Shown piece after piece: positions 18,024-30,581 of a DNA stretch of 32,084 nt. Each line of letters begins with the position of its first letter. Position 1 is the first letter of the stretch. A program made the translations under genes and the position numbers. The DNA lies in the IMG/VR virus record IMGVR_UViG_3300046804_003239, positions 1 through 32,084 of that record; one strand, given 5' to 3'. The DNA is from a virus. Under the pieces are notes generated by a model. That model did not search any database, had not been told where the DNA came from, and saw only the letters and a list, made by a program, of their open reading frames with translations.

Positions 18024-19757
18024 ATGCCCAAAATTAAGTCGCATAAAACAGTTGAGCAAATTGCAAAGAAGCATCTTCTTGATGTTTCTTTCATACAAAA
18101 GCAACTTGACATGGGCGAACCTATTGAACATGAGCACACTAAAGACCACGAACTTGCCCGTGATATTGCTTTACAGCATCTTGACGAAATTCCAGATTAT
18201 TATACTCGCCTGAAAAAAATGGAAGCAGATGCTAAAAAGCATCATAAAAAGTTTAAAGATATTAAAGAAGGAAATCTACATAAATGGTATCAAAGTAAAT
18301 CGAAAGAAGGAAAACCGGGTTGGGTCAATGTAGTAACTGGTGGCACATGTGCAAGTGATGAATCAGGTGAAGGTGTCCCCAAATGTGTTTCTTCTGAAAA
18401 GAGAGCAAGTATGACTAAAGCACAAAGACTTTCTGCAGCAAGAAGAAAAAAAGCAGCAGATCCGGGTCAGCAGCAAAAAACAGGAGCTGCAAAACCAACA
18501 TATGTTTCTACAGATAAACCAAAAGAGAAAATGAAAGAAGAAATGGATGTACAAGAGGCAAAAGATAAAAAAGGCAAAGGTAGTGGCACCAAAGATGCTT
18601 GCTATCATAAAGTAAAATCACGTTATGATGTTTGGCCAAGCGCATATGCATCTGGAGCACTAGTCAAGTGTCGCAAAGTTGGCGCAGCAAATTGGGGATC
18701 CAAATCCGAAGCAGTAGAAGAGCAAAGATATTGTCCATTGTGTGATAAAAGAGAGACAAGATCTGAGTGTTCTTATGGTGGCAAAGCATGGGACAAAGTT
18801 TCCATCAAAGACCATGAATATTCAATGGCAAGATCCGAATTAAAAACCATTGTTGATGCAGTAAAAAGATTGCAGATGAAAGTTGGTAAGGGTGAAGGAG
18901 ATTTGGAAGCATGGGTACAATCAAAAATTACAAAAGCAGCAGATTACATTGATACCGCAGCAGATTATGTTGCTAGTGGTGAAATGGAGGAGCAAAAGTT
19001 AGTTGATAAAATTGTGGATGAGATGAAGTGCTGGCCTGAATATAAAAAGAAAGGTACTCAAAAGTTATTTGGAAAAACTTATAATCGTTGCGTAAAAGCA
19101 GAAGACGTAACTATTGAAGATGCCGATGGAAATACTTTTGCTGAGATTGTTGATCTGATTAAACCAGAACCTATTAAAGGATTTAAATCTCAAATAGAAG
19201 AAGCAACAAGACTTCAAGCACAAACTGGAAACGTAGTTGCAGTTACTCTTTCTTGGAGAGGAAAATATTATGGAATGAAAATGTTTTTCCCCCAAGTTAA
19301 GACTCCGACAAAAAAAGAGATTAATGATGAACTTCAAAAAGTTTATCCCGGATCCGTAGTTTTATATCATACTATTTCAGAAATTAAACCAGGTCAACCA
19401 CTCATTCAGGTATTTGGACCACAAGGAGGAAGTTTTGGAAACCCAGGTCCAAGTAAAAATTATGTGAAGACCATGGGAGAAGAAGTTAATATCGATGAGG
19501 ATTGGCAATCGGTAAATAGAAAAGATAGAACTGCAGGATTAAGTCAAAAAGCAGTAAATGCTTATCGTAGAGAAAATCCAGGTTCAAAACTTCAAACCGC
19601 AGTTACAGAAAAGAATCCAGAAGGTAAAAGAGCAAAAAGACGTGCATCTTTTTGCCGTAGGATGAAAGGTATGAAGTCTAAACTAACTTCAGCAAAAACT
19701 GCAAGAGATCCAGATAGCAATATCAACAAAGCACTTCGTCGTTGGAACTGTAATTAA
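18024..19757 (+). CDS. Multidomain Lys/Cys-rich protein between terminase genes; candidate head-internal protein
   Basis: The 577-residue product is a chain of small domains. Residues 1-70 ('MGEPIEHEHTKDHELARDIA', 'LDEIPDYYTRLKKMEADAKK') resemble DUF5661. Then come basic segments with paired cysteines: 109/121; 193/216 ('ACYHKVKSRYDVWPSAYASG'); a CPLC cluster at 237-249; a helical segment 264-320 ('EAWVQSKITKAADYIDTAAD'); 336/356 ('CWPEYKKKGTQ'); a beta domain 400-455 ('WRGKYYGMKM', 'LQKVYPGSVV'); and a C-terminal basic domain 488-577 ('AYRRENPGSK', 'KALRRWNCN'). The 400-455 domain recurs in the gene at 26421. No catalytic motif is recognised. High lysine, acidic linkers with [I/L]-x-E sites and the late-gene position suggest a protein packaged in the head and cut by gp21; that is inference. 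I start it at ATG 18024 rather than the TTG at 18021. Confidence 0.7.
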   Translation: MPKIKSHKTVEQIAKKHLLDVSFIQKQLDMGEPIEHEHTKDHELARDIALQHLDEIPDYYTRLKKMEADAKKHHKKFKDIKEGNLHKWYQSKSKEGKPGWVNVVTGGTCASDESGEGVPKCVSSEKRASMTKAQRLSAARRKKAADPGQQQKTGAAKPTYVSTDKPKEKMKEEMDVQEAKDKKGKGSGTKDACYHKVKSRYDVWPSAYASGALVKCRKVGAANWGSKSEAVEEQRYCPLCDKRETRSECSYGGKAWDKVSIKDHEYSMARSELKTIVDAVKRLQMKVGKGEGDLEAWVQSKITKAADYIDTAADYVASGEMEEQKLVDKIVDEMKCWPEYKKKGTQKLFGKTYNRCVKAEDVTIEDADGNTFAEIVDLIKPEPIKGFKSQIEEATRLQAQTGNVVAVTLSWRGKYYGMKMFFPQVKTPTKKEINDELQKVYPGSVVLYHTISEIKPGQPLIQVFGPQGGSFGNPGPSKNYVKTMGEEVNIDEDWQSVNRKDRTAGLSQKAVNAYRRENPGSKLQTAVTEKNPEGKRAKRRASFCRRMKGMKSKLTSAKTARDPDSNINKALRRWNCN

Positions 19758-24543: not shown

Positions 24544-26232
24544 ATGGCAAAATTATTTGGATTTTCTATTGAAGATACGGAACCACTGTCTCCGGGCGTA
24601 GTTTCTCCTGTTCCAGAAAATAGGGAAGATGAATCAGACTACTACCTGAGCAGTGGTTTTTTTGGATCTTATGTAGATATTGAAGGTGTTTATAGAACTG
24701 AGTTTGATCTCATTAAGAGATATCGTGAAATGGCACTCCATCCAGAGTGTGATAGTGCTATTGAAGATATTGTAAATGAAGCTATTGTTAGTGATACTAA
24801 TGATTCTCCTATTGAAATTGAGTTGTCAAATCTAAATGCTAGTGATGGGATCAAAAATAAAATAAGGAAAGAATTTAAATATATTCTTTCTCTTTTGGAT
24901 TTTGATAAGAAGTCCCACGAAATTTATAGAAACTGGTATGTTGACGGTAGACTTTATTATCACAAAGTCATTGACTTAAAAAATCCACATGCAGGAATTC
25001 AAGAATTAAGATACATTGACGCAATGAAAATGCGTTATGTGCGCCAACAGAAAAAAACGGAAAAAGATAAAAGAACTTACAGAATGTCTGGAGTCAATTC
25101 AAATGACCCAATGGAGTATGAGTTTCCACAAATAGAGGAATATTTTGTTTATAATCCCAAAATGACTTATCCAACAAGTAATCCATCATCTATGGGTGGA
25201 ACTGCTGGAATTAAATTTACAAAAGATTCTATCTCATATTGCACATCTGGTCTAGTAGATAGAAATAAAGGATCAACACTTTCATACCTCCACAAAGCAA
25301 TTAAATCACTCAATCAACTTAGAATGATTGAGGACTCTCTTGTAATTTATAGATTATCTCGTGCCCCAGAACGTAGAATTTTTTACATTGACGTTGGCAA
25401 TCTTCCCAAAGCCAAAGCAGAACAATACCTCCGCGATGTTATGATGCGTTATCGCAATAAGCTAGTATATGACGCAAATACTGGTGAAATTCGTGATGAT
25501 CGTAAGTTTATGGCGATGCTTGAAGATTTTTGGCTTCCCAGAAGAGAAGGTGGTAGAGGAACTGAAATATCTACTCTTCCCGGTGGTCAAAACCTTGGAG
25601 AAATCACAGATATTGAATATTTTAAGAAAAAACTTTATCGTTCTTTAAATGTTCCTCCATCGAGAATGGATGGTGAAGGCGGATTCAATCTAGGTCGCTC
25701 ATCTGAGATTCTGCGCGATGAAGTTAAATTTAGTAAGTTTGTTGCTCGATTAAGAAAACGTTTTTCTTATATGTTCCACGATATGCTGAAAACTCAGCTT
25801 ATCTTAAAAAATATCATCACCCCAGAAGATTGGGATATGATGGAAGAGCATATTCAATATGATTTCTTATATGATAATCATTTTGCAGAACTTAAAGACG
25901 CCGAACTTCTGAACGAAAGACTGAATATGGTTCAAATTGCAGAACCTTATGTTGGAAAATATTTTTCTCAAGATTATCTAAGAAGAAAAATTCTTCGTCA
26001 AACTGATGAAGAAATTATCGAACAAGATAAGATTATGAAAAAGGAAATTAAGGATGGAATCATTCCAGATCCAAGTATTCCAGTAGATCCTACAACAGGT
26101 ATGCCTATTGAACCTGGAACTGCTGCGATGGATCTTGGTCAACCAGTTATGGAACCGAATCTAGATTCTCAGGGAGCTGCTACTGAAGCAAGTGGAAAAA
26201 TCGCTGAAATGCCCAAGGGTGGCGAAATATAA
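24544..26232 (+). CDS. 20: Portal vertex protein gp20
   Basis: gp20 forms the twelve-subunit portal ring that nucleates the prohead and through which gp17 packages DNA. Recognised by 'GSYVDIEGVYRTEFDLIKRY', 'REMALHPECDSAIEDIVNEA', 'YRNWYVDGRLYYHKVID', 'RLSRAPERRIFYIDVGNLPK' and 'SSEILRDEVKFSKFVARLRK', all conserved in T4-like portals. Length 562 against 524 in T4; the extra lies mainly in an N-terminal acidic segment and a Pro-rich C-terminal tail ('IPVDPTTGMPIEPGTAAMDL'). A late-promoter-like motif lies before it, and an exact TATAAATA overlaps its stop codon for the genes that follow. Confidence 0.97.
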   Translation: MAKLFGFSIEDTEPLSPGVVSPVPENREDESDYYLSSGFFGSYVDIEGVYRTEFDLIKRYREMALHPECDSAIEDIVNEAIVSDTNDSPIEIELSNLNASDGIKNKIRKEFKYILSLLDFDKKSHEIYRNWYVDGRLYYHKVIDLKNPHAGIQELRYIDAMKMRYVRQQKKTEKDKRTYRMSGVNSNDPMEYEFPQIEEYFVYNPKMTYPTSNPSSMGGTAGIKFTKDSISYCTSGLVDRNKGSTLSYLHKAIKSLNQLRMIEDSLVIYRLSRAPERRIFYIDVGNLPKAKAEQYLRDVMMRYRNKLVYDANTGEIRDDRKFMAMLEDFWLPRREGGRGTEISTLPGGQNLGEITDIEYFKKKLYRSLNVPPSRMDGEGGFNLGRSSEILRDEVKFSKFVARLRKRFSYMFHDMLKTQLILKNIITPEDWDMMEEHIQYDFLYDNHFAELKDAELLNERLNMVQIAEPYVGKYFSQDYLRRKILRQTDEEIIEQDKIMKKEIKDGIIPDPSIPVDPTTGMPIEPGTAAMDLGQPVMEPNLDSQGAATEASGKIAEMPKGGEI

Positions 26233-26235
26233 ATA
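26228..26235 (+). promoter_or_regulatory. Candidate late promoter TATAAATA before the prohead core genes
   Basis: Exact T4 late promoter core, overlapping the last codons of gp20 and ending 28 bases before the gp67-like start. Confidence 0.6.
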
Positions 26236-26262: not shown

Positions 26263-26424
26263 ATGGATGATCTTTTAGATATGATTGCTGCTGACGAATC
26301 ACCTTCGCAGATTAGTGATAAGATTAAAGAACTTCTTTTTACAAAGTCTGCAGAAAAAATTGATGAGTTTCGTCCAGCAGTAGCAGTCTCAATGTTCAAT
26401 AGCGAAACCGAAGAGGAAGAATGA
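26263..26424 (+). CDS. 67: Prohead core protein, gp67-like
   Basis: This 53-residue gene begins 'MDDLLDMIAADESPSQISDK', continues 'IKELLFTKSAEKIDEFRPAV' and ends in a run of acids ('SETEEEE'). T4 gp67, also just after gp20, has the same plan: a short helical 'I-x-x-L-F...A...I...I-A' region followed by a strongly acidic tail, and it is a prohead core component degraded by gp21 during maturation. The N-terminus matches the short core proteins of cyanophages as I know them. It has its own GAAAGG site and an exact late promoter core upstream; its TGA overlaps the next ATG (ATGA). Identification rests on position and composition because so little sequence is available. Confidence 0.75.
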   Translation: MDDLLDMIAADESPSQISDKIKELLFTKSAEKIDEFRPAVAVSMFNSETEEEE

Positions 26425-26741
26425 AATCATTCAAACAATTCATCTCAGAATCAGTAAATATTTCTGGAGATTTTAACGGAAATCTTTACATTAATTCTTC
26501 CCAACTAGAACCACAACAAGTTGGCGAAGAATATGTTGCAGATGTTTTGTGGAATGGAAGTCTTTATAGAATGGAACTTGTATCAAATAATGGAGTTCCA
26601 TCAAAACAATCTTTAGGTGAACAGTTACAGACAGAATATCCAGGAGCAATTGTTCACCAAATTTATCCAGTGATGGAAAAAAATATTAATATTAAAAATA
26701 CGCAAAGATATCACCCATCAAAGTTGGAATGGATTGATTGA
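26421..26741 (+). CDS. Small protein with T4-like capsid-targeting N-terminus; candidate head-internal protein
   Basis: The 106-residue product starts MKSFKQFISES. T4 internal proteins start with a capsid-targeting peptide, MKTYQEFIAE, cut by gp21 after the glutamate of an I/L-x-E site; the resemblance (MK-[ST]-[FY]-x-x-F-I-x-E followed by a small residue) is close, so cleavage after Glu10 is predicted. The rest is a compact beta domain with 'VADVLWNGSLYRMELV' and 'LGEQLQTEYPGAIVHQIYPV', which recurs in the multidomain protein at 18024 ('LSWRGKYYGMKM', 'LQKVYPGSVVLYH'). It overlaps the gp67-like gene by ATGA, in the slot where T4 has core gene 68, so a core-component role is the main alternative. 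Function after packaging is unknown. Confidence 0.6.
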   Translation: MKSFKQFISESVNISGDFNGNLYINSSQLEPQQVGEEYVADVLWNGSLYRMELVSNNGVPSKQSLGEQLQTEYPGAIVHQIYPVMEKNINIKNTQRYHPSKLEWID

Positions 26742-26744
26742 TAA

Positions 26745-28064
26745 ATGGCACAGTGGAATAAGTCTATACAAGATTATCTAAACCAAGAAAGAAGTCTTTT
26801 TGAGGTTTTTATACAAGCAGATCGCTATGGAAATGTTTTTGATCCACTAGGTCAAGGGTTTTCTGGAGATCTTTTTGGACGTTTAAAAGTATCAAATCCA
26901 ATTACTCTCTTTGATTCCACTCATAGATATGAACAAGATGGAGATTTCAGTGATGTAATTGTCGGTTCTGGATCGACTGTAGGAATTATTACGCACCAAA
27001 GTACAGCAACTCTTGGAATAGGAACAACTGCTGGATGTTCTTTTGTAAGAGAAAGTAAAAGAGTATTTTCATATCAACCAGGAAAAGCATTACAAGTTCT
27101 TCAAACATTTGTAATGGAACCACCCAAAGCAAATCTAACACAAAGAGTTGGATATGCCTCATCGGAAAATGGAGTTCTTCTTGAACAGTCAACAGATTCT
27201 TCAGGAATTACGACTGCTTATTTTACAATGAGAACAAAAAGATCTGGAATTAGTACAGAAATTAGAGTTCCACAGTCGCAATGGAACAGAGATACTTTTG
27301 ATGGAACTGGATTTAGTACAAGTAATCCAAGTGGAATTAAATTAGATTTAAGTAAAGCACAAATTTTATTCAGTGAGTATGAATGGTTAGGTGTTGGTGC
27401 CGTTCGTTGTGGTCTCGTAAACGAAAATGGAATTTTTCATATATTACACATTTTCAATCATTCAAATGTGATTGATAGTACTTATATGACTACAGCAACT
27501 CTTCCAGTTCGTTACGAAATCTTTAACACTGGAATTACAACATCATCATCTACATTTAAACAGATATGCGTTTCTATTCAATCCAATGGTGGTTATGAAA
27601 AAAGGGTTGCATCAGATGTAGCAAGACAAGATGCACTAGTTTCAGTAGCATCTACATCTTTTATTCCTCTTGTAAGTATTCGTCTCAAAGCAGGAAGAGA
27701 AGATGCGGTTATTCTTCCAAATCAAATTAATGCTCTTCCAGATAGTGCAGCATCAGTTTATTATGAAGTTGCACTTATTAAAAATGCAACAATTACTGGT
27801 GGAAGTTGGATAACTTCCTCGTCTCCAAATGTAGAACAAAATACAACTGCGACTTCTATTTCTGGCGGAACAGTAGTTAGAGCAGAATATATTTCATCTG
27901 CAAATAAAGCTTCAACTCCTTTGAATGAGACTACAGAATATAATTGGGATTTACAACTTGGAAGAACTCAAGCAAAAGTTAGCGATACATATACTTTAGC
28001 AGTAAGAGCAATTTCTGGAAGTGGAAACTGCATTGGTTCTTTGAGTTTTTACGACCTAACTTGA
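26745..28064 (+). CDS. Virion structural protein of unknown function, 'FGRLKVSNPITLFDS' type
   Basis: The 439-residue protein has near its start 'LFGRLKVSNPITLFDSTHRY', a signature I know from structural proteins of many marine phages, followed by a beta-rich body ('SFVRESKRVFSYQPGKALQV', 'YFTMRTKRSGISTEIRVPQS', 'KLDLSKAQILFSEYEWLGVG') and an end with 'YNWDLQLGRTQAKVSDTYTL'. No catalytic motif is evident. T4 has no equivalent between the core genes and gp21. The place among head genes favours a head-associated decoration or fibre protein, but a tail or host-contact protein is also possible. It starts 4 bases after the preceding stop (TGATAAATG), with no clear ribosome binding site. Confidence 0.6.
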   Translation: MAQWNKSIQDYLNQERSLFEVFIQADRYGNVFDPLGQGFSGDLFGRLKVSNPITLFDSTHRYEQDGDFSDVIVGSGSTVGIITHQSTATLGIGTTAGCSFVRESKRVFSYQPGKALQVLQTFVMEPPKANLTQRVGYASSENGVLLEQSTDSSGITTAYFTMRTKRSGISTEIRVPQSQWNRDTFDGTGFSTSNPSGIKLDLSKAQILFSEYEWLGVGAVRCGLVNENGIFHILHIFNHSNVIDSTYMTTATLPVRYEIFNTGITTSSSTFKQICVSIQSNGGYEKRVASDVARQDALVSVASTSFIPLVSIRLKAGREDAVILPNQINALPDSAASVYYEVALIKNATITGGSWITSSSPNVEQNTTATSISGGTVVRAEYISSANKASTPLNETTEYNWDLQLGRTQAKVSDTYTLAVRAISGSGNCIGSLSFYDLT

Positions 28065-28102: not shown

Positions 28103-28657
28103 ATGGCTCATAGACCAGTTGGTGCTGGATCTTCATTTGCATTTTCTGCAGGTGCTGCATCCACATCCTCAGCATTTTCAGTTCAATCTAATGTACTAAG
28201 GGTGGTTGCCGTTGGTGCAGCTGCTCACGTTGCTATTAGTACCGGATCAGCAGCAGCGGTAACAGATTATTATGTCCCATCAGGTCAATCGGTAACTCTT
28301 GGTCTTACCAAAGCTTCCAATAGAGTAGTTGGAATTACAACAGGAACAACTACAACAGTAATAGTACCAGAGGGAACACAAGTTCCATTCGGTGTTGGTG
28401 ACTTTGTTTCTATATCAGCAACTGGTCAACCATATTATGATATTTCTCACGCAGCAGTTCTTTCTGTTGATACCACAACAAATTTCAATGGGTATCATCA
28501 AACGAGAATGGTGATTGATTATAACTCATCAGGAATCTCAACTGCTTTTGCTGCTTCATATGCGGATGTGAAACTATCGCAAAAAATCTCCGCATATGGT
28601 GCTGGTGGCGCAGGAGTTCTTTATTATCAACAAGTACAAATCACAGGTCAAGCATAA
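28103..28657 (+). CDS. Ala/Gly-rich probable head structural protein
   Basis: The 184-residue product starts 'MAHRPVGAGSSFAFSAGAAS' and is dominated by Ala, Gly, Ser, Thr and Val. A central 'HVAISTGSAAAVTDYYVPSG' and 'TTVIVPEGTQVPFGVGDFVS' suggest a small beta domain. No signal peptide, transmembrane segment or catalytic motif is seen. Placed just before the prohead protease, with a TAATG overlap coupling the two genes, it is most likely part of the head, perhaps a decoration protein. I do not recognise a characterised family. A late-promoter-like motif precedes it. Confidence 0.6.
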   Translation: MAHRPVGAGSSFAFSAGAASTSSAFSVQSNVLRVVAVGAAAHVAISTGSAAAVTDYYVPSGQSVTLGLTKASNRVVGITTGTTTTVIVPEGTQVPFGVGDFVSISATGQPYYDISHAAVLSVDTTTNFNGYHQTRMVIDYNSSGISTAFAASYADVKLSQKISAYGAGGAGVLYYQQVQITGQA

Positions 28658-29307
28658 TGAAACTTATTACCGAAGAAATCGAATCAGTAGAAGTTCTTAC
28701 CGAAACGGTCAACGGTAAGAAGACTCTTTATATTCAAGGACCTTTTTTACAAACTGAAGTCGTTAACCGTAACGGCAGAATGTATCGTATGCCGGTCATG
28801 GAAAGAGAGGTGAAGCGTTATACTGAGCAGTATGTTAACAAAGGTCGTGCTCTTGGGGAACTTGGACACCCCGATGGTCCAACTGTAAATCTTGACCGCG
28901 TTTCCCATAAAATTGTTTCACTTCATCGTGAAGGAAATAATTTTATCGGTAAGGCACAAATTCTCTCAACCCCAATGGGCAAAATTGCAGAGTCTCTTCT
29001 TAAGGAAGGAGTAACCCTTGGCGTTTCTTCTCGTGGTATTGGATCTGTAAGACAGAATACAGAAGGATACTCAGAAGTTGGTGAAGATTTTATGCTAGCA
29101 ACTGCTGCAGATATTGTTGCTGATCCTTCTGCTCCCGATGCTTTTGTTCAGGGGATTATGGAAGGTAAAGAGTGGATTTGGGATGGTGGTATCCTAAGAG
29201 AAAAAGCAGCAGAGAACGCTAAACGTAGTATAAATACACTAGTTGATCAAAGTATTCTTGAAGAATACAAGTTATCATTATTTAATGAGTTCTTAAACTC
29301 ATTGTAA
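28657..29307 (+). CDS. 21: Prohead core protease gp21
   Basis: gp21 is the serine protease that is activated in the finished prohead and cuts the scaffold, core proteins and gp23 at I/L-x-E sites. Family signs: 'GPFLQTEVVNRNGRMYRMPV' (28-47), 'RALGELGHPDGPTVNLDRVS' (64-83) carrying the probable catalytic His71, and 'EGVTLGVSSRGIGSV' (117-131) with the catalytic serine (124 or 125). The N-terminus contains 'LITEE', a possible self-cleavage site. Length 216 is close to T4 gp21 (212). Its ATG overlaps the previous stop (TAATG). Targets in this window would include gp22, gp23, the gp67-like peptide and probably the protein at 26421. Confidence 0.95.
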   Translation: MKLITEEIESVEVLTETVNGKKTLYIQGPFLQTEVVNRNGRMYRMPVMEREVKRYTEQYVNKGRALGELGHPDGPTVNLDRVSHKIVSLHREGNNFIGKAQILSTPMGKIAESLLKEGVTLGVSSRGIGSVRQNTEGYSEVGEDFMLATAADIVADPSAPDAFVQGIMEGKEWIWDGGILREKAAENAKRSINTLVDQSILEEYKLSLFNEFLNSL

Positions 29308-29363: not shown

Positions 29364-30581
29364 TTGTCTCGTGGAGATTTACAAGAAATGGAAGTAGGCA
29401 CTAAGCAATCCAGAACCGCTGTCAATGCAAATGCAAAGGCAGCGGAAGCGATGCCAAAACTAGCATCAGGAGCAGTTGCTGGTCAAACCGGTGGATGGGA
29501 AGATCTTGGTGGACCAGATCCATCAAACTATCGCCCAGACGATGATTCAGCAAAATTAAAAACACCAGGCGGAACCCTTAAGCAAGTTAAGGATGTCGTA
29601 AACAAAGGTGCTGGAGCCGCTGACGCTATGAAAGGTCTTAAGAAGGAAGACGCTGATTATGATGAAGATGACGAACTCTTAGAAGAAACCGAAGAGGAAG
29701 AAGAAACCGAAGAGGAAGAAGAAACCGAAGAGGAAGAAGAAACCGAAGAGGAAGAAGAAATCGTAGAAGCTAAGCACGAAGAAGAGGAAGAGGGCGGTAA
29801 GAAAAAAGGTAAGAAGGAAGAAGAAGAGGAAGAAGAAGAGGAAATGGAAGAGGAGTTTAGCATCGAAGAAGATGTTAATGCTCTTCTAGAAGGTGAAGAA
29901 CTCTCCGAAGAGTTCCAAGAAAAAGCAAGAACCATTTTCGAGGCTGCTCTTCGCTCAAAGGTTTCCGATATTAAGGAAGCACTTGAGGAGCAGTATGCAA
30001 CTGCTCTTGCTGAGGAAGTAGAGGAAATCAAATCCGAACTTTCTGAGCGTGTAGATGCATACTTAGAGTATGTTGCTGACGAGTGGATGCAAGAAAATGC
30101 ACTCGTTATTGAGCAAGGTCTTAAGACCGAAATGACTGAATCATTCCTCCAAGGAATGAGAGGTCTTTTTGAAGAACATTATGTATCAATCCCTGAAGAT
30201 AAATATGATGTGCTTGAGAGCATGGTAGAAAAACTTGATGAGATGGAGACAAAACTCAACGAGCAGATTGAGAAAAACGTTTCCCTTAACAAGCGTCTCG
30301 CAGAGTCGGTTGCTGATGGAATCTTTGAACAGGTCGCTGTTGGTCTTGCAGACACACAGAGAGACAAGCTCGCTTCACTTGCCGAAAGTGTTGAGTTTGA
30401 AAGTGAAGAAGAATATCGTGAAAAACTGGAGACTTTGAAGGAATCATATTTCCCTTCAAGAGTTGTATCTCCATCGGCTAAAACTGAAACTCTTTCAGAA
30501 AGTAGCGAAGCAGTTCAAGAACCAGTTTCTGATGCAATGGCTGCTTACCTGAGAACACTTTCGGGTTTTAGAAAGAATTGA
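29364..30581 (+). CDS. 22: Major prohead scaffold protein gp22
   Basis: gp22 forms the core on which the gp23 shell assembles and is destroyed by gp21. The 405-residue protein has a polar N-terminus ('SRGDLQEMEVGTKQSRTAVN'), a long acidic low-complexity region (about 95-170) with four exact ETEEEE repeats and lysine patches, and a helical, coiled-coil-like body (about 175-360: 'YLEYVADEWMQENALVIEQG', 'LESMVEKLDEMETKLNEQIE'), ending 'AAYLRTLSGFRKN'. It is longer than T4 gp22 (269), mostly from the N-terminal acidic part. The start is TTG, supported by a well-spaced GGAG. It sits between gp21 and gp23, as in T4. Confidence 0.93.
   Translation: MSRGDLQEMEVGTKQSRTAVNANAKAAEAMPKLASGAVAGQTGGWEDLGGPDPSNYRPDDDSAKLKTPGGTLKQVKDVVNKGAGAADAMKGLKKEDADYDEDDELLEETEEEEETEEEEETEEEEETEEEEEIVEAKHEEEEEGGKKKGKKEEEEEEEEEMEEEFSIEEDVNALLEGEELSEEFQEKARTIFEAALRSKVSDIKEALEEQYATALAEEVEEIKSELSERVDAYLEYVADEWMQENALVIEQGLKTEMTESFLQGMRGLFEEHYVSIPEDKYDVLESMVEKLDEMETKLNEQIEKNVSLNKRLAESVADGIFEQVAVGLADTQRDKLASLAESVEFESEEEYREKLETLKESYFPSRVVSPSAKTETLSESSEAVQEPVSDAMAAYLRTLSGFRKN
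29685..29756 (+). repeat. Four exact copies of an 18-base repeat in the gp22 acidic region
   Basis: The unit gaaaccgaagaggaagaa is repeated four times without a mismatch and is read as ETEEEE in the gp22 frame. Exact identity at synonymous sites suggests recent expansion by slippage or unequal recombination. Copy number can change without loss of frame. Confidence 0.95.

Follow-up and report, generated by a model that had tools for sequence, protein, structure and literature searches.

The window analyzed here is a 32,084-base virus record, taken over its whole length, with S-SM2 and other T4-like cyanophages as its closest named relatives. Its genome has genes for both a gp21-type protease and a gp22-type core. 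The open reading frame (ORF) from 26421 to 26741 runs for 106 codons from an ATG start and encodes a protein with the N terminus MKSFKQFISES. The protein belongs to phrog_1742, a family without an assigned function, and members of this family gave no match in a Pfam search or in a PADLOC search. Immediately upstream is a shorter ORF, from 26263 to 26424, that we call gp67-like from its position, size, and acidic tail only; it matches phrog_14164/2088, again with no assigned function. A box of the type TATAAATA, which we take to be the T4 late promoter consensus, lies 5′ of this gene, and in the 32 kb there are four such boxes on the plus strand and two on the minus strand. The features of the region are as follows.

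26228 to 26235, plus strand: TATAAATA box 5′ of the gp67-like gene; T4 late-promoter-like, weak
26263 to 26424, plus strand: acidic-tailed 53-aa ORF in the position of T4 gp67 (from position and size)
26421 to 26741, plus strand: phrog_1742 ORF, 106 aa (open frame; PHROG E = 2.9e-43)
26421 to 26450, plus strand: putative T4-type capsid-targeting sequence MKSFKQFISE, residues 1 to 10 (T4 comparison, motif scans, pLDDT 37)
26442 to 26453, plus strand: predicted gp21 cleavage site I8-S9-E10/S11 (T4 gp21 consensus L/I-x-E, PMC9026906; S9, E10, and S11 invariant)
26529 to 26669, plus strand: predicted folded beta-beta-alpha-beta domain, approximately residues 37 to 83 (AlphaFold2)
26745 to 28064, plus strand: phrog_1645 virion structural protein, 439 aa, directly 3′ of the phrog_1742 gene (PHROG; neighbor counts)
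28103 to 28657, plus strand: DUF7243/phrog_682 protein, between the tagged-gene pair and gp21
28657 to 29307, plus strand: gp21 prohead protease (Peptidase_S77), presumed to carry out the processing (Pfam E = 6e-37)
29364 to 30581, plus strand: gp22 scaffold (T4_CASP), the presumed core bound by the tag

A first-pass annotation of this DNA had the tagged gene overlapping the gp67-like gene, and the two do share 4 bp (ATGA). It had also placed the tagged gene four genes before the protease; only two genes separate it from gp21, which is thus the third gene in the downstream direction. The gp22-like scaffold gene has a long E-rich repeat run, and its start, as listed, is TTG.

The same annotation had drawn a parallel between MKSFKQFISE-S and the T4 peptide MKTYQEFIAE, including the I-x-E at residue 10, and the T4 record bears this out: ipII and ipIII both begin MKTYQEFIAEA. 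According to a review of the T4 head (PMC9026906), ten residues of IPIII are enough for head entry, T4 mutants identified residues 4 and 7 of IPIII as the most important for targeting and residues 8 and 10 as the most important for processing, and gp21 cuts after L/I-x-E. MKSFKQFISE fits IPII and IPIII at all four of these positions: residues 4 and 7 are both aromatic, and the motif I8-S9-E10 ends at residue 10. Residues 1 to 10 are predicted to be disordered (pLDDT 37). The window protein is further like IPII and IPIII in its MK-[ST]-[FY]-x-x-F-I-x-E start, in its small size, in coming from a genome with gp21 and gp22, and in having a common tag ahead of unrelated mature parts. There are also differences. 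After Glu10, the window protein would be acidic (pI 4.83, net charge −5), whereas the mature parts of T4 IPI, IPII, and IPIII are basic (pI 9.0 to 9.7); its predicted cut is E/S, with Ser rather than Ala at P1′, in contrast to E/A in IPII and IPIII; and its gene lies in the head gene block, whereas the IPII and IPIII genes are in an accessory locus. T4 IPI, which in the T4 record reads MKTFKEFTS..TITEA, is like the window protein in its MK-[ST]-F-K-[EQ]-F start and small mature domain, but it has a 19-residue propeptide and a later cut site (MKTFKEF..TITE/A).

We scanned for this peptide with a relaxed motif, M[KR]x[FYLI]xx[FYL][ILVMT]xE, that was fixed before the N termini of virion-detected proteins were looked at. 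The motif occurs a single time in the window. A six-frame scan of T4, covering 2,963 start codons, gave three starts: ipII, ipIII, and 61.1. A DNA pattern for the tag matched 14 times in eight whole phage records (1.57 Mb), and the reversed pattern matched 0 times. Cyanophage DNA totaling 881 kb gave 89 motif matches, of which 87 were the phrog_1742 family itself; of the remaining two, one was a chance frame and the other was a real cytidyltransferase gene. This count reflects low background, not abundance, because the loci were partly recruited through the peptide itself. The T4 gene 61.1 product (gp61.1, 54 aa; L010:18966-19130) starts MKTFKEFIKED, a full match to the tag, which makes it a candidate for an unrecognized T4 head protein. 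The term gp61.1 was not found in the literature searched.

By tblastn, the phrog_1742 family is present in 138 phage records, in 135 of them with at least 80% query coverage. Residue 1 is the start of the alignment in all of the best 60 alignments from the 138 records; in a spread sample of 60 alignments, 58 start at residue 1 and the other two match the domain only. Conservation of the N terminus in homologs, on which the first-pass annotation had staked its reading, was found: in an alignment of 18 family sequences, F7, S9, E10, and S11 are invariant, while variation is limited to K/R at position 2, S/T at position 3, F/Y at position 4, and I/L/M at position 8. The same residues occupy positions 4 (F/Y) and 8 (I/L/M) in 77 distinct IMG/VR family proteins, a set recruited partly through the peptide. 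One homolog (locus L287) has the T4-canonical E/A: MKTFKQFIKEAINISGDFNG. Conservation extends beyond residue 10, and therefore conservation alone fails to single out the tag.

Of the 80 closest IMG/VR loci, 79 have the gp67-like gene before the family gene. We examined seven cultured phages: six of them (S-SCSM1, Sf-CH8, Syn33, S-CAM9, S-SRM01, and S-SZBM1) carry the family gene between terS and terL, and in the seventh, Sf-FS3, it is far from terL. Because cultured relatives place the gene elsewhere, its adjacency to the gp67-like gene is a local arrangement of the close uncultured clade; the earlier placement of the gene beside a core gene holds for that clade but not for the cultured relatives. 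We rejected adjacency to the core gene as evidence in itself. We also rejected the family as a gp68 homolog by position; in the seven cultured relatives examined, it is not in the gp68 position.

On the downstream side, phrog_1645 directly follows the family gene in 72 of the 80 IMG/VR loci, and the locus ends there in four more. All seven cultured phages have a gene of 750 to 1,320 bp directly after the family gene, labeled as virion or structural in five. The pairing is conserved across relatives, and therefore the pair appears to move together. These counts favor the view that the family protein is a partner or chaperone of the adjoining phrog_1645 protein, its N terminus serving as a contact and not as a head-targeting signal. 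We consider this improbable, however, as it leaves unexplained both the tag on an NMNAT, a SAM hydrolase, and a kinase and the domain embedded in DUF6321 proteins, which are described below.

Enzymes have been detected by mass spectrometry in cyanophage virions. In S-SCSM1, an NMNAT was found (PMC9602691); in S-CREM2, the proteins found include a SAM hydrolase, a kinase, a cytidylyltransferase, and one that is Cas9-like (PMC10665884). The authors left cargo versus carry-over undecided (PMC9602691, PMC10665884). The N terminus of the S-SCSM1 NMNAT (ORF91) is MKSFLQFLKE/A; those of the S-CREM2 SAM hydrolase, kinase, and cytidylyltransferase (ORF154) are MKDFDSFLEE, (V)KRFDAFLTE, and MKNFSSFLTE/A, respectively. 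Two further virion-detected proteins of S-CREM2 are ORF13, which starts MKDLHSFLTE, and ORF136, which is encoded between terS and terL and starts MQTFSMFFSE. In the Cas9-like protein, a related stretch is found only internally, at about residues 17 to 26.

All four of the motif-bearing annotated coding sequences in 99 kb of S-CREM2 were virion detected, versus 25 of the 145 others (Fisher P = 0.0012). Combining S-CREM2 with S-SCSM1 (one of two) gave five of six motif-bearing genes detected (P = 0.0008), and adding S-SZBM1 (none of two) gave five of eight (P = 0.0065). These counts cover 99 of 175 kb of S-CREM2 and 65 of 178 kb of S-SZBM1. The S-SZBM1 test, with neither of the two motif-bearing genes in the 65-kb stretch detected, ran against the tag reading. 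The S-SZBM1 cytidylyltransferase (S-SZBM1_140) was detected in virions (PMC9146016, Table 1); its tag, MRFRQFIIE/A, is one residue shorter and hence was missed by the motif. S-SCSM1 ORF91, S-CREM2 ORF154, and S-SZBM1_140 are like the window protein in having a similar N-terminal tag, but they are enzymes of 286 to 409 aa, are virion detected, and have genes located elsewhere.

In IMG/VR, 49 NMNAT/cytidyltransferase loci were recruited without the N terminus in the search patterns; two of these lack the gene start, and the tag is present in all 47 that hold it. A pattern scan of IMG/VR gave at least 86 tag matches in 80 loci. Among the matches listed, all 84 that are not at a locus end are open frames of at least 40 aa (the other two are at a locus end), and these 84 starts fell into 38 BLAST groups after 14 residues were trimmed, a figure in which short proteins are possibly split too finely. 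A similar peptide therefore occurs on otherwise unrelated proteins (NMNAT, SAM hydrolase, kinase, ORF13, and the 38 IMG/VR groups), and the idea in the first-pass annotation that the motif could be used to find other cargo genes worked in practice. Peptidase_S77 was looked for in 12 of the 80 records that gave pattern matches and was found in five, including all three of those longer than 170 kb. One 107-kb record has no Peptidase_S77, and the dependence of the tag on gp21 is therefore presumptive.

These data also bear on the possibility that MKSFKQFISE is a chance or common N terminus with no targeting role. The motif is short, and its positions 2 to 10, in the relaxed form, have 18 matches within 144,257 residues of long frames. 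Nevertheless, a chance origin is very improbable given the zero matches to the reversed pattern in 1.57 Mb, the enrichment of the motif among virion-detected proteins, and the open frames behind all 84 of the listed IMG/VR matches that are not at a locus end.

The domain that follows the tag in the phrog_1742 protein occurs a second time in the window, as follows.

18030 to 19757, plus strand: DUF5661/DUF6321 protein (phrog_727), upstream of gp17, with a second copy of the domain
19176 to 19205, plus strand: KGFKSQIEE/A, tag-like; its I-x-E precedes the embedded domain by 11 residues
19236 to 19373, plus strand: embedded domain copy (profile search E = 3.8e-21; initial weak match E = 4.9e-5)

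Profile searches across all loci gave 39 distinct embedded copies. An [ILVM]-x-E lies 9 to 12 residues ahead of the embedded domain in 39 of 39, compared to a background of 18.8% of 12-residue windows; the copies are homologous and not independent, with 16 left below 75% identity. Ala or Ser follows the [ILVM]-x-E in 31 of the 39 sites, and 11 have the strict T4 form [IL]-x-E-[AS]. Two of the embedded-domain proteins, SSCSM1_29 and S-CREM2 ORF137, were detected in virions. The DUF6321 (PF19846) virion proteins (phrog_727), encoded 5′ of the terminase, are like the window protein in carrying the same domain behind [ILVM]-x-E, but they are multi-module proteins in which the tag is internal and degenerate (in the window, KGFKSQIEE/A). 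Sf-FS3 has an 82-aa tagged protein encoded directly before terL that, from alignment only, is an apparent third form.

The free protein alone gave a poor predicted fold (pLDDT 63). With 39 free and embedded sequences, AlphaFold2 predicted a beta-beta-alpha-beta domain with a mean pLDDT of 88.8 and a pTM of 0.61. When the predicted domain was compared with the PDB, no match reached an E value of 0.001, and the matches from a profile search against solved structures were not credible (best E = 0.14). With VIA-align, Z values were below 5 for the better model and up to 5.5 for the poorer model. The match to T7 Gp2 was weak (Z = 4.6; root mean square deviation of 2.6 Å over 50 residues) and was tied by ribosomal proteins and phi29 p6. 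IPI* was absent from the structure match lists, an absence that is no evidence against likeness to IPI*.

T4 internal proteins are found in virions, whereas phrog_1742 relatives were not found in two virion proteomes, those of S-SCSM1 and S-SZBM1. The S-SCSM1 family protein has no virion label in GenBank, while both of its neighbors have one (GenBank labels give 48 virion proteins versus 45 in the paper [PMC9602691]). In S-SZBM1, the family protein (S-SZBM1_191) and its tagged neighbor (S-SZBM1_192) are absent from the 30-protein virion table of the article (PMC9146016); the product of the adjoining gene, S-SZBM1_190, annotated as virion structural, is in the table (PMC9146016). For S-CREM1, 14 virion proteins were detected, and the family gene is labeled hypothetical. 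Absence from proteomes is weak evidence because the family protein yields few usable tryptic peptides. A table in PMC9026906 lists ∼360 copies for the T4 internal proteins, and therefore an equally abundant homolog should have shown in the proteomes.

Because of these absences, loss at maturation is a live rival. The family protein would then be a core component that the tag brings into the prohead core and that is lost or degraded after gp21 acts, with a role in assembly and not in infection. T4 gp68 is present at 240 copies in the prohead and 0 in the mature head (table in PMC9026906), and in this window the family gene is in the gp68 position, between the gp67-like gene and gp21. However, T4 gp68 has no such tag at its start, the seven cultured relatives examined do not have the gene in that position, and mature virions contain this domain within SSCSM1_29 and S-CREM2 ORF137. 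On balance, we regard a core component as unlikely, although less so than a phrog_1645 partner.

Judged by sequence comparison, the evidence so far marks residues 1 to 10 as a genuine T4-type capsid-targeting sequence. What we observed is the match to the T4 peptides, its conservation, the tag on virion-detected enzymes, and an [ILVM]-x-E ahead of every embedded copy. For the product of 26421 to 26741, we infer core binding, cutting, retention, and ejection. During head assembly, the tag would bind the gp22-based prohead core (through Phe4 and Phe7, if it acts like the IPIII tag) and so would carry the phrog_1742 protein into the prohead. There, gp21 would cut after Glu10 (I-S-E/S) and free a 96-residue acidic protein with the beta-beta-alpha-beta domain. 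The mature protein would most likely remain in the head among the DNA and enter the cyanobacterium along with it, in the style of the T4 internal proteins. The domain probably reaches the head in two forms because the DUF6321 virion protein also contains it, preceded by a protease-like site. That the tag works in head targeting and cutting is probable; the whole chain, from targeting and cutting through retention to ejection into the host, has about an even chance of being right.

Somewhat less likely than that is a broader reading in which T4-like marine phages have a general injection program, with metabolic and signaling enzymes (NMNAT, SAM hydrolase, and kinase) and small domains loaded into the prohead core by the tag, trimmed by gp21, and delivered to the cyanobacterium. 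As part of such a program, the 26421 to 26741 protein would reach the host in two ways, on its own and as a fragment that the protease releases from the DUF6321 protein, and it may bind a host machine (the predicted fold is nearest, weakly, to T7 Gp2). T4 internal proteins have only the leader in common and differ in the Type IV restriction enzymes that they block (PMC12373910), and this may serve as one model for the action of cyanophage cargo.

The T4-type tag on these enzymes offers a specific, testable reason to view them as truly packaged rather than carried over. The new point is that the presence of enzymes in cyanophage virions can be explained by tags of this kind. We found no prior report of a tag marking these enzymes in the literature searched; among the open-access papers searched, "capsid targeting sequence" and "cyanophage" co-occur only in the Black review, with cyanophage within a reference title. 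The tag is also a simple means to list candidate injected proteins of abundant ocean phages, and it turns phrog_1742, a family with no function in 138 phage records, into a candidate for head cargo.

Several other proteins with tags were noted. By eye, a second stretch, L..SDGHG...D, comes soon after the tag in the S-SCSM1 NMNAT (L095:38819-40045), the Cas9-like virion protein (S-CREM2 ORF12; L167:7704-10313), and S-CRM01 g128 (L166:5396-5947); perhaps it is a second packaging or binding module common to unrelated enzymes. S-SZBM1_194 (707 aa; L244:23252-25375, minus strand) has an internal FITYREFIAEG, near the T4 TYQEFIAE, which suggests fused cargo modules with internal tags. In S-CRM01, whose virions are reported to contain a kinase (PMC10665884), the kinase PKN8 (L166:2675-5140) starts MISFDQFLSEK and g129 (L166:5163-5399) starts MKKLDQFLTEK. 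S-SRM01 has tagged proteins of 447 aa (MKSFSQFLEES; L165:3825-5168), with no PHROG match, and 67 aa (MKSFQEFLFEE; L164:2793-2996). Finally, proteins of 68 to 73 aa starting MKTFKEFI[NS]EEGYD share contigs with a cytidyltransferase gene (L157:6641 and L158:8984).
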